From positions 1-14,595 of the forward strand of contig JAEUSS010000438.1 in NCBI GenBank assembly GCA_016788685.1: a stretch of 14,595 bases of DNA, read 5' to 3'. Of the stretch, positions 1-7,518 are shown piece by piece (the first letter of the stretch is position 1; the number at the start of each line of letters is the position of its first letter). The notes under the pieces are model-generated. The model searched no databases. It was not told where the DNA came from and was given only the letters and a program-made list of their open reading frames with translations. Position numbers and translations under genes: made by a program. Origin of the DNA: Prolixibacteraceae bacterium (lineage in GTDB: Bacteria > Bacteroidota > Bacteroidia > Bacteroidales > Prolixibacteraceae).

Positions 1-167
1 GGCACGCCTGCCTGCCCGGCAATGGCCCGTGCCGCTTCTTCCTCGACGCGATGCCGCTGCCCGTAGTCGAAACAGAGCGTTTCCACCTCATCAAAATGCT
101 TCAGGGCCCAGAACAGACAGGTCGTCGAGTCTTGTCCTCCGGAGAATACAACTAATGCTTTGCTCAT
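1..167 (-). CDS. queC: 7-cyano-7-deazaguanine synthase QueC, N-terminal part
   Basis: The first 55 codons are visible; the rest of the gene runs off the left edge. QueC is a cytoplasmic ATP-dependent enzyme that converts 7-carboxy-7-deazaguanine and ammonia to preQ0, the precursor of preQ1 and queuosine. Residues 5-18 carry the family's N-type ATP pyrophosphatase PP-loop, with SGGQDS at about residues 9-14. The [11 protein letters not shown] segment at about residues 32-42 is also typical of QueC. The start is placed at the ATG reading [11 protein letters not shown], which leaves no room for a longer N-terminus in this family. The stop of an upstream mini-ORF overlaps this ATG (ATGA), so translation may be coupled. 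It lies downstream of the queuosine-precursor transporter on the same strand with no visible terminator between them, so co-transcription is likely. Identification is firm from motif and context; only the truncation limits it. Confidence 0.95.
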
Positions 168-325: not shown

Positions 326-1006
326 TTAAATTTCCCTGATCCTGAACAGGTTGTACGACTGATTGGTGTCGAACGTATCCACGCCTTCCACGCGTTTCAC
401 CCAATTGACCACCGCCATGGTGACCGGCAGAATCAGGATTTCGTACACCGTTTTCAGCATCGCCTGGGTGAACATCATGGTGACCAGCACTCCGGCCGGG
501 AAAACTCCGGCAAAAGCAATGGAAATAAAGATCAGCGAATCGGCGCTTTCGCCGGCCAGTGTCGACAGAATTGCCCTCCCGGAGAAACCTTTGCCCTTGG
601 TGGCCACCTTCATGCGGCTCATCACAAAAGCATTCAGGAACGACCCGATCAGGTAAGCGCACAGGCTGGCGATTACAATGCGCGGAGTGTTACCCAGCAC
701 CGTAGCAAACGCTTCCTGGTTTGGCCAGAAGGGGGCGCCCGGAATGACGATTCCGGCAGTGAAAAACAACACGGCCAGCACATTCACCGCAAAGCCGGTC
801 CAGATGATCAGGCGCGCTTTGCCAAAGCCCCACACCTCGGTGATTACATCGTTCAGGATGTAGGCAATCGGGAAAATCAACACTCCGGCCGGTGCGGCTA
901 GCGATCCGATTAATAAAATTTTAGTGGCAAGGATGTTGGAAATCAACAAACAGGTGGCAAATAAAATGCCCGCAAGCATAAACAATACAGATACTGAATT
1001 TTTCAT
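326..1006 (-). CDS. yhhQ: YhhQ-type queuosine precursor transporter
   Basis: A 226-residue integral membrane protein of the VUT/YhhQ (COG1738) family, which imports queuosine precursors such as preQ0 and preQ1 across the inner membrane. About six hydrophobic segments are visible (roughly residues 7-27, 30-52, 66-88, 105-127, 155-180 and 185-203). Family-typical stretches include SNILATK (23-29), FPIAYILNDVITEVWGFGKAR (starting near 45), GSFLNAFVMSRMK (121-133) and GESADSLIF (152-160). The length matches the family norm of about 220 residues. The ATG chosen is the first in frame after the predicted leader, and the riboswitch-like element ends two bases before it, which supports this start. The neighbour queC makes preQ0, so import and synthesis of queuosine precursors appear co-regulated. 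The reading frame stays open past the TAA as far as the queC start. Confidence 0.92.
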   Translation of the reverse strand: MKNSVSVLFMLAGILFATCLLISNILATKILLIGSLAAPAGVLIFPIAYILNDVITEVWGFGKARLIIWTGFAVNVLAVLFFTAGIVIPGAPFWPNQEAFATVLGNTPRIVIASLCAYLIGSFLNAFVMSRMKVATKGKGFSGRAILSTLAGESADSLIFISIAFAGVFPAGVLVTMMFTQAMLKTVYEILILPVTMAVVNWVKRVEGVDTFDTNQSYNLFRIREI

Positions 1007-1007
1007 T

Positions 1008-1038
1008 TCTTGTTTTTTACGTGGTTACCAAGTACACG
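1008..1038 (-). promoter_or_regulatory. candidate preQ1-I riboswitch (H-type pseudoknot)
   Basis: Read on the minus strand, the leader of the transporter gene has all parts of the preQ1-I aptamer. P1 is CGUG (1038-1035) paired with CACG (1023-1020). The loop starts with U1034 and ends GUAA then an unpaired C1024 next to P1, matching the U, AAC and C that contact preQ1 in the Thermoanaerobacter tengcongensis aptamer. P2 is CUUG (1032-1029) paired perfectly with CAAG (1012-1009). Between them is the A-rich tail UAAAAAA. The tail P2 strand ends two bases before the AUG, so docking would hide the translation start: an OFF switch is inferred. P1 is short (4 bp), and the loop is one base longer than in the T. 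tengcongensis aptamer. The downstream gene, a preQ1/preQ0 transporter, fits the ligand. Not confirmed by a covariance search. Confidence 0.75.
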
Positions 1039-1054
1039 GCTTTCTTCGGAAAGC
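1039..1054 (-). promoter_or_regulatory. 5' leader hairpin abutting the riboswitch
   Basis: On the minus strand GCUUUC (1054-1049), loop CGAA, GAAAGC (1044-1039) forms a perfect 6-bp hairpin. It begins about seven bases downstream of the TAnnTTTG element, close to the expected transcription start, and ends on the base before P1 of the preQ1 element, so the two helices could stack. A likely role is shielding the 5' end or helping aptamer folding; this is inference. Confidence 0.6.
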
Positions 1055-1060
1055 ACGGCG

Positions 1061-1068
1061 CAAAAATA
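1061..1068 (-). promoter_or_regulatory. -7 element of the yhhQ-queC transcription unit
   Basis: TATTTTTG on the minus strand fits the Bacteroidota -7 consensus TAnnTTTG. Predicted transcription starts near 1054-1057, giving a leader of about 50 bases that consists of the hairpin and the preQ1-like pseudoknot. No good TTG is seen at the -33 position. A 10-bp palindrome ATTCCGGAAT (1076-1085) lies just upstream. Confidence 0.6.
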
Positions 1069-1126
1069 CACTTTTATTCCGGAATCGGAAAAAGGCAGAC
1101 AAGCGCCAAAGAAAAATGCCCGGAAG

Positions 1127-1158
1127 ATTGATTCTCAGAGCCTAATCCTTTAACTTTG
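1127..1158 (+). promoter_or_regulatory. promoter of the DUF2007 gene
   Basis: ATTG at 1127-1130 and TAACTTTG at 1151-1158 are separated by 20 bases, matching the Bacteroidota -33/-7 arrangement. Transcription is predicted near 1163-1165, about 35 bases before the ATG. Confidence 0.6.
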
Positions 1159-1198
1159 ATGCAGTACCTGATTTTCGAAAATCCTAAACCAACACCCG

Positions 1199-1642
1199 AT
1201 GAATAACGATAAAATTGTGGTTTACGAAACCTTCACCGATCCGAACCACGCGCACATCGTCAGAGCATTACTTGAGCAGTACGGCATCGACTGTTTCCTT
1301 TCCGACGAACACATGGTCAGCTTGAATGCCATGTACAGCGCGGCGGTTGGCGGAGTGAAACTCCATGTTTTTGAAAAAGATATCGACCGCATTTCCGCCC
1401 TTCTCCGGTCAGAAAATGCAATTCCCGAAACTAACTCCGGACAGGAACCCGAAGCAAGTAAAATCACCTGCCCCCAATGCCATTCCGGCAACGTGGCCTA
1501 CGGCGGTTCGGTAAAGAAAAAGTTCGGACTGAGCACCGCGCTGATCTTTTCGGTGATCACGTCTTTTGTGTTAATGGTCTATCCGTTTAAGATGCGGAAA
1601 GTCTATCACTGTTTCGGGTGCGGGCACGAATTCAAAAAATGA
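1199..1642 (+). CDS. DUF2007 domain protein with membrane-associated zinc ribbon
   Basis: A 147-residue protein. Residues 4-72 match the DUF2007 pattern (a small alpha/beta fold annotated as putative signal-transducing): VVYETFTDPNHAHIVRALLE opens the domain and VGGVKLHVFEKD follows. The C-terminal part has two knuckles, CPQC (91-94) and CFGC (138-141), as in a zinc ribbon, separated by about 43 residues including a hydrophobic run at 112-130. The function of DUF2007 proteins is not established; zinc binding is inferred from the cysteines. The hydrophobic run may be a membrane-dipping beta-hairpin rather than a through-membrane helix, because a single crossing would put the knuckles on opposite sides. 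It is divergent from the queuosine transporter and followed 58 bases later by a CPBP protease with its own promoter-like element. Confidence 0.85.
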   Translation: MNNDKIVVYETFTDPNHAHIVRALLEQYGIDCFLSDEHMVSLNAMYSAAVGGVKLHVFEKDIDRISALLRSENAIPETNSGQEPEASKITCPQCHSGNVAYGGSVKKKFGLSTALIFSVITSFVLMVYPFKMRKVYHCFGCGHEFKK

Positions 1643-7446: not shown

Positions 7447-7518
7447 GGTTCCATAGTTCAACGGATAGAATAGCAGTTTCCTAAACTGTAGATCCGGGTT
7501 CGATTCCCGGTGGGACTA
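7447..7518 (+). tRNA. tRNA-Arg, anticodon CCT
   Basis: A 72-base cloverleaf can be drawn. The acceptor GGTTCCA pairs with TGGGACT (7511-7517, with two G-U pairs) and A7518 is the discriminator. The D stem is GTTC/GAAT. The anticodon stem GCAGT/ACTGT encloses loop TTCCTAA, with the anticodon CCT at 7480-7482 reading the arginine codon AGG. The T arm is CCGGG-TTCGATT-CCCGG. The 3' CCA is not encoded, so it would be added by nucleotidyltransferase. The gene stands alone with its own promoter and terminator. Confidence 0.95.

Follow-up and report, generated by a model that had tools for sequence, protein, structure and literature searches.

The window, by which we mean the whole 14,595-nt stretch of DNA that was analysed, carries yhhQ on the minus strand at positions 326–1006, encoding a queuosine precursor transporter of 226 aa (TIGR00697, 111 bits against a cut-off of 50.95; PF02592, 166 bits). 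It is followed by the first 55 codons of queC (1–167, minus strand), recognized from its translation and by PF06508 (69.7 bits) and cut by the contig end; queF probably comes after queC in this operon, as it does in relatives. Between yhhQ and queC, positions 200–262 hold a direct repeat centred on ATGCGCATC in three copies, with AAATTTC as the spacer, and Rfam placed a tRNA gene on the plus strand at 7447–7518.

Immediately 5' of yhhQ lies a candidate preQ1 aptamer, a 30-nt H-type pseudoknot on the minus strand at 1038–1009, in a leader that reads CCGUG UA CUUG GUAAC CACG UAAAAAA CAAG AA AUG. A first-pass annotation of this DNA had proposed a complete pseudoknot with P1 CGUG/CACG and P2 CUUG/CAAG at 1008–1038; both helices were confirmed in the minus-strand sequence and the upper end at 1038 was retained, but the lower end is at 1009 rather than 1008. 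In the direction of transcription, with the helical strands assigned from sequence and covariation, the elements are the P1 5' strand CGUG (1035–1038), of which G1035 belongs to the floor of the pocket; L1 UA (1033–1034), with U1034 as the expected ligand-contacting U, a position that was U in 85/85 distinct copies; the P2 5' strand CUUG (1029–1032); L2 GUAAC (1024–1028), with C1024 as the expected specificity base; the P1 3' strand CACG (1020–1023); L3 UAAAAAA (1013–1019), with A1013 as the expected ligand-contacting A; and the P2 3' strand CAAG (1009–1012). L3 includes positions −12 (A) and −13 (U), counted from the yhhQ AUG (1006–1004), from which AA separates the end of P2, two bases away as first annotated.

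A hairpin, P0, with a perfect 6-bp stem (GCUUUC-CGAA-GAAAGC, 1039–1054, minus strand) directly abuts P1. A stem of at least 4 bp ending exactly at P1 was present in 26 of 79 single-copy leaders, whereas 100 single-base shuffles gave 4.25 of the 79 on average and 10 at most; P0-like stems offset from P1 by 1 nt and 2 nt occurred in 19/79 and 16/79, respectively. The 26 abutting stems fit the idea of something stacking under P1. Among close relatives, the hairpin stem varies in a compensatory way (GCUUUC/GAAAGC and GCCUUC/GAAGGC). Farther upstream, the box TATTTTTG (1061–1068, minus strand) matches TAnnTTTG, which we take to be the Bacteroidota promoter consensus; the window has 20 such matches where 11.6 are expected, and the box is weak when considered alone. 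Across relatives, 83 of 96 leaders had a TAnnTTTG box in the 90 nt preceding the first aptamer, compared with 4/96 for a control stretch 200–290 nt upstream. Judging from the box at 1068–1061 and an assumed offset from promoter box to transcription start, the transcript probably begins approximately 16 nt upstream of the aptamer. Nested folding, which cannot represent a pseudoknot, gave z values of −1.23 for the window leader and 0.43 for the leader of a relative with three aptamer copies.

A purpose-built model, constructed from 31 motif-selected copies with P2 entered without pairing, found the site as a single strong match of 47.7 bits in the window's own genome, where the best of 15 other matches (E up to 10) reached 18.6 bits; the motif therefore exceeds chance. 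With Rfam 15 at the gathering cut-off, the whole window gave only the tRNA and no PreQ1 match, and RF00522 gave no PreQ1 match in 850–1300 at E≤10, a range in which the sole match, to Clostridium-PBP, was rejected as far below its own cut-off. RF00522 at gathering detected 0 of 20 homologous loci and exceeded its cut-off in 0 of 61 neighbourhood genomes, the Bacillus subtilis control being positive; among the 61, only G011 had a match below the cut-off (30.4 bits). One triple leader scored 13.8 bits against a cut-off of 39, and a Desulfallas leader, which presumably resembles the Tte aptamer, scored 27.8 bits. The first-pass annotation had foreseen that an aptamer with a 4-bp P1 would score poorly with the standard model, as was the case. 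Its term 'divergent variant' has to be qualified, the architecture being of ordinary type II design; the RF00522 cut-off is a criterion of the curated model and separate from the biochemical definition of the class. As the family escaped RF00522 in every test made here, the annotation of queuosine regulation in Bacteroidales probably falls short of its true extent.

Conservation was analysed with alignment A3, comprising 127 copies (85 distinct) from 97 source loci that we selected from 208, leaving out near-duplicates. An earlier alignment, A2, had required P1 pairing, with two pair-breaking copies added by eye and with L036, L045 and one L042 copy left out after the aligner had shifted P1; all three are in A3, and the A3 counts are preferred. 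In the A3 copies, 96.4% of 676 cells were paired in P1 and P2, the alignment being fitted to P1 and its P1 counts accordingly leaning towards the model. Compensatory changes were present in five of the eight pairs, with 53 double-changed cells against 16.0±3.0 after shuffling, and the covariation score was 0.233, compared with 0.072 for shuffled and at most 0.074 for slid alignments. P1 and P2 covary across Bacteroidales, with P1 types including CGUG/CACG, CGAG/CUCG, AGUG/CACU and AGAG/CUCU, and P2 types including CUUG/CAAG, CCUG/CAGG, CUGG/CCAG (L142) and AUUG/CAAU (L197). The compensatory changes that the first-pass annotation proposed to look for among relatives were thereby found, and its second test, loss of the C at 1024 or of the CAAG strand, likewise did not refute it: the C before P1 (C1024 in the window) was invariant in the copies counted, and so was the C that opens the 3' strand of P2. 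The specificity C, the L1 U, the L3 A and the G–C floor pair, which are the ligand contacts described for class I preQ1 riboswitches (PMC11625349), were each invariant in 85/85 distinct copies. The two bases before the 3' strand of P1 were AC in 83/85, CC in 2/85 and UC in 0/85 distinct copies.

The type definitions within class I, which reportedly originate from McCown 2014, were applied as given in reviews. The window contains the H-type pseudoknot with P1, P2 and an A-rich L3 that characterizes class I, and its AC before the 3' P1 strand is described as the type II signature (PMC11625349). Type I features were not found, the UC before P1 being absent from all 85 copies and the window L1 being UA, not UU; nor were those of type III, the window CAAG being followed by AA and not forming AAGG, and its L1 UA leaving no UU flanking P1. 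Judged from its sequence, the window element is very probably a class I type II preQ1 riboswitch that senses preQ1. The first-pass assignment to preQ1-I with YhhQ as the target is supported. Members of preQ1-I in Bacteroidota are already known: a review lists the phylum for type I and gives a similar distribution for type II (PMC11625349). Type I-like and type II leaders are both present in the window's family. The G011 match (L096:1501–1547), from that family, is a type I-like leader with UC before P1 and AGGA in the tail, and a QueC-like frame starts approximately 100 nt downstream of it.

Of 86 homologous loci, 79 have the motif ahead of yhhQ. The 86 comprise 57 collected by YhhQ homology and 29 by family search, many of the latter from genomes already among the former, so that the 79 are not all independent. 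The seven loci without the motif were L015, with only 6 nt of leader; L046, L048, L052, L056 and L057, recorded under other phyla; and L037, from a Tannerella MAG. In genome draws scanned with strict filters, so that all counts are lower bounds, the motif was found in at least 7 of 395 genomes from the phylum (six of the seven in the window's order), 59 of 393 from the order and 177 of 301 from Bacteroidaceae, the family of genome G134. The sole phylum-draw match outside the order (G666, L157, 29.4 bits) had no suitable frame placed after it and may be a chance match. In viral contigs, the first, stricter pattern found no stretches and a looser pattern found two, neither followed by a second P2 strand; these were taken as chance.

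In the first set of 55 motif loci, the next gene was YhhQ in 52, and the others were QueC (L110), QueD (L148) and an inosine-uridine nucleoside hydrolase (L150). The second set, in which 9 of 57 loci had no pattern match or frame and some loci repeat the first set, gave 48 frames: 41 YhhQ, five QueC (L163, L169, L174, L192 and L193), one QueD (L158, which coincides with L148) and, behind a spurious hit of the pattern, one further frame (L159). The operons found by family search were yhhQ-queC-queF (L062), yhhQ-queF (L134), queC-queF (L110) and queD-queE (L148), and such searches also bore out the nucleoside hydrolase. Overall, the aptamer lies before genes of queuosine pathway or transport, and since QueF makes preQ1, negative feedback is the simplest logic.

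The distance between aptamer and AUG was 2–7 nt in 92 of 97 loci; in the remaining five (L150, L033, L192, L163 and L190), the start was at least 43 nt away or unplaced, and these would need another expression platform. None of the tetramers GGAG, GAGG and AGGA occurred in the aptamer–AUG gap of the 92 leaders. AGGA spanned the P2 strand and the gap in seven of the 92 (L036, L045, L155, L156, L196, L206 and L207) and is absent from the window. Bacteroidia ribosomes are reported generally to ignore Shine–Dalgarno (SD) sequences, and their initiation to favour A at −3, −6, −12 and −13 together with low structure (PMC9976891, PMC8710568). Among 88 distinct leaders, −12 and −13 fell within L3 in all 88, with A in 87 and 81, respectively; −6 lay inside P2 in 74, with A in 45 of these; and overall, A was present at −6 in 59 and at −3 in 47. 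The window leader has G at −3, C at −6, A at −12 and U at −13, of which only −12 fits the preference. Because the A-rich loop covers the initiation-promoting −12/−13 positions and SD sequences are generally ignored, the ribosome probably lands on the aptamer platform itself. Ligand-induced folding would directly hide this site, the argument from −12/−13 and low structure being strong and that from −3/−6 weak. The first-pass proposal of direct occlusion in place of SD hiding gains indirect support from the gap devoid of such tetramers and from ribosomes that ignore SD (PMC9976891, PMC8710568), but it is qualified by the leaders with AGGA across P2.

Some leaders depart from this spacing. In L163, L169 and L192, roughly 70–90 nt separate the aptamer from queC, and in L190 the start is unplaced; these probably use another type of expression platform or contain a small ORF. 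In L033, the aptamer (1914–1944) lies 56 nt 5' of yhhQ, and the switch may be bypassed there, because a promoter-like TAAATTTG occurs between the two.

Our main reading, to which we assign a probability of about 85%, is that a class I type II preQ1 aptamer is at the same time the region where translation of the yhhQ–queC operon starts and shuts it off by preQ1 feedback, with tandem growth of the leader in one Bacteroidaceae genus. In the course of events that we infer, the A-rich tail and the CAAG strand would be single-stranded when preQ1 is scarce, and a 30S subunit would load there. Binding of preQ1 to C1024, U1034 and A1013 would dock the tail along P1 and pair CAAG with CUUG, so that the initiation site would turn into a compact pseudoknot 2 nt from the AUG and translation would stop; the outcome would be feedback on preQ1 import and synthesis. 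In the Bacteroidaceae genus, the leader has grown to two or three mostly abutting copies, which would probably stack end to end and sharpen the response.

The same aptamer could instead act on the transcript, through pausing, Rho access or RNA decay, with initiation left unblocked. Transcription termination is among the mechanisms given for class I type II, and members of the family can induce pausing (PMC11625349); the distant queC aptamers of L163, L169 and L192, and L190 with its unplaced start, would also suit such action. However, no terminator-like site was found in window positions 900–1250, and the placement of 92/97 aptamers next to the AUG argues for initiation, leaving action on the transcript unlikely. 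Slightly less probable still is a natural ligand other than preQ1, such as preQ0 or another 7-deazaguanine (e.g. queuine). The gene downstream is an importer, a proteobacterial YhhQ is reported to salvage both preQ0 and preQ1 (PMC10622847), and no QueF turned up in the genome from which the window comes. This absence is too weak a sign of a salvage-only ligand to be accepted, since the genome is fragmented (654 contigs), the contig with the window breaks off within queC, ahead of the expected place of queF, and QueF was present in 19 of 22 same-genus relatives searched. Moreover, QueF exceeded the cut-off in 45/45 genomes of the genus with tandem copies (in G1201 only by a 28-bit match, maybe a paralogue), and the pocket positions that read preQ1 (contacts as in PMC11625349) are kept. 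The very strong conservation of primary sequence, for example AAAAAACAAG, would also be expected of a protein-binding operator that merely resembles a pseudoknot, but the compensatory changes in both helices, the agreement of every examined pocket position with preQ1-I and the Q-pathway partners make an operator very improbable.

While the window's own leader contains one aptamer, two or three copies, with no ORF between them, precede yhhQ in certain Bacteroidaceae of rumen and gut (habitats as given in the record titles of L040, L041 and L053); such leaders have the make-up of a tandem riboswitch. Exactly three matches were found in at least 13 of the 301 genomes of the Bacteroidaceae draw, among the matches listed. 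In the genus of G134, 31 of 45 genomes had a match at E≤0.05 and 14 had none; three adjacent copies were present in 18 of the 31, two in seven and one in six, giving 25 multi-copy genomes, two of which count as doublets through a second match that is weak (G425, E 0.012; G1194, E 0.044). A second search of the same 45 genomes from another centre is not independent. Among the matches listed for the family, order and phylum draws, no adjacent copies were found outside this genus. Of 30 junctions between copies, 27 were linkerless, two had 3 nt and one had 29 nt (L043). The last hides a middle copy missed by that search, which overlaps the next copy by one base; for the tree, L043 was therefore counted as a triple instead of a double. 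Neighbouring copies differed in the P1 helix at 27/30 junctions, and where CGAG lies beside CGUG full cross-pairing is impossible. In the usual triplet, copies 1 and 3 share the same P1 with different P2. In most triplets, P2 of the copy in the middle is poorly paired (CCAG/CCAG), and the third P2 pair was unpaired in 13/84 cells. This copy may use a partly non-canonical P2, as in the Tte aptamer, in which only two of four P2 steps are described as canonical (PMC11625349). A tree was made from 84 YhhQ sequences no shorter than 200 aa; it lacks L054 and L058, whose genes, behind triple leaders, are truncated where the contig ends. In this tree, the 13 triple and three double rows formed one clade with support 100/100; the group test compared only triple with double rows, and the clade was read from the drawn tree. 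Because the multi-copy rows form this one clade, the array probably arose once and was then kept with changes in copy number.

Table 3 of a 2022 survey by Sherlock et al. (PMC9481103) places PreQ1-I, -II and -III among the classes for which no tandem was found, and the tandem preQ1-I arrays contradict this entry. A full-text literature search, covering few subscription papers and no preprints, showed no report of tandem preQ1 aptamers in titles and abstract openings. Our best guess is that the copies far from the AUG would act by stacking on the third copy. In a fuller version, which we put forward tentatively and at somewhat less than even odds, the two or three abutting 30-nt pseudoknots of this genus would form a stacked rod occupying most of the 5' UTR; preQ1 would bind cooperatively by end-to-end stacking, the alternating P1 helices would avoid mispairing, and the rod would act as a digital translation switch, with the aptamer tail as an SD-free landing site. 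The copies might otherwise be a functionless, lineage-specific duplication in which only the AUG-proximal aptamer works. The confinement of the arrays to one clade and the usually weak P2 of the middle copy agree with this, and the upstream copies would lie outside the expected ribosome footprint. However, at least two copies are present in 25 of 31 matching genomes, the pocket residues are intact in the A3 copies, the P1 helices differ at 27/30 junctions and the P2 of upstream copies includes the paired variants CCUG/CAGG and CUGG/CCAG. We consider functionless duplication rather unlikely, with an appreciable chance nonetheless. If the cooperative stacked rod is real, preQ1 control would have a third route, in addition to aptamers with a single ligand and pockets with two stacked ligands. 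Three aptamers in approximately 90 nt make the arrays a very small candidate cooperative RNA sensor.

Compared with the type II riboswitches of Thermoanaerobacter tengcongensis and B. subtilis, the window element shares the approximately 30-nt H-type pseudoknot, the AC, the A-rich L3, the C, U and A contacts and the Q-pathway genes, but it has a 4-bp P1, a tail without SD and an RF00522 score below the cut-off where tested. As in type I (Carnobacterium antarcticum, Haemophilus, Neisseria), control would be exerted by a pseudoknot and mainly by means other than SD sequestration, and the sharper response expected there from the binding of two ligands would have a counterpart here. The two ligands of type I, however, are stacked in one pocket with UC, whereas here the bases are AC in 83/85 copies and multiplicity arises through repeated aptamers in some relatives. 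Type III of Escherichia coli likewise has the AC motif and a P2 tail strand near the start codon, but it buries AAGG as an SD sequence, in contrast to the CAAG and the generally SD-ignoring ribosome here. Like the tandem glycine, c-di-GMP-I and SAM-I doublets and triplets surveyed (PMC9481103), the arrays repeat aptamers of one class before one gene; unlike those, most copies are linkerless and only the last lies at a recognizable expression platform. Riboswitch control of translation is usually explained by SD hiding, and Bacteroidia ribosomes generally ignore SD; an aptamer placed on an adenine-rich initiation site would offer a natural system for SD-free riboswitch control.

A further preQ1-type leader (L150:2027–2056) lies 43 nt 5' of an inosine-uridine nucleoside hydrolase gene, on a contig that has a second aptamer, before yhhQ, approximately 14.5 kb away. 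This leader suggests queuosine nucleoside salvage, and iunH under preQ1 switches is mentioned for Firmicutes (PMC3766115).
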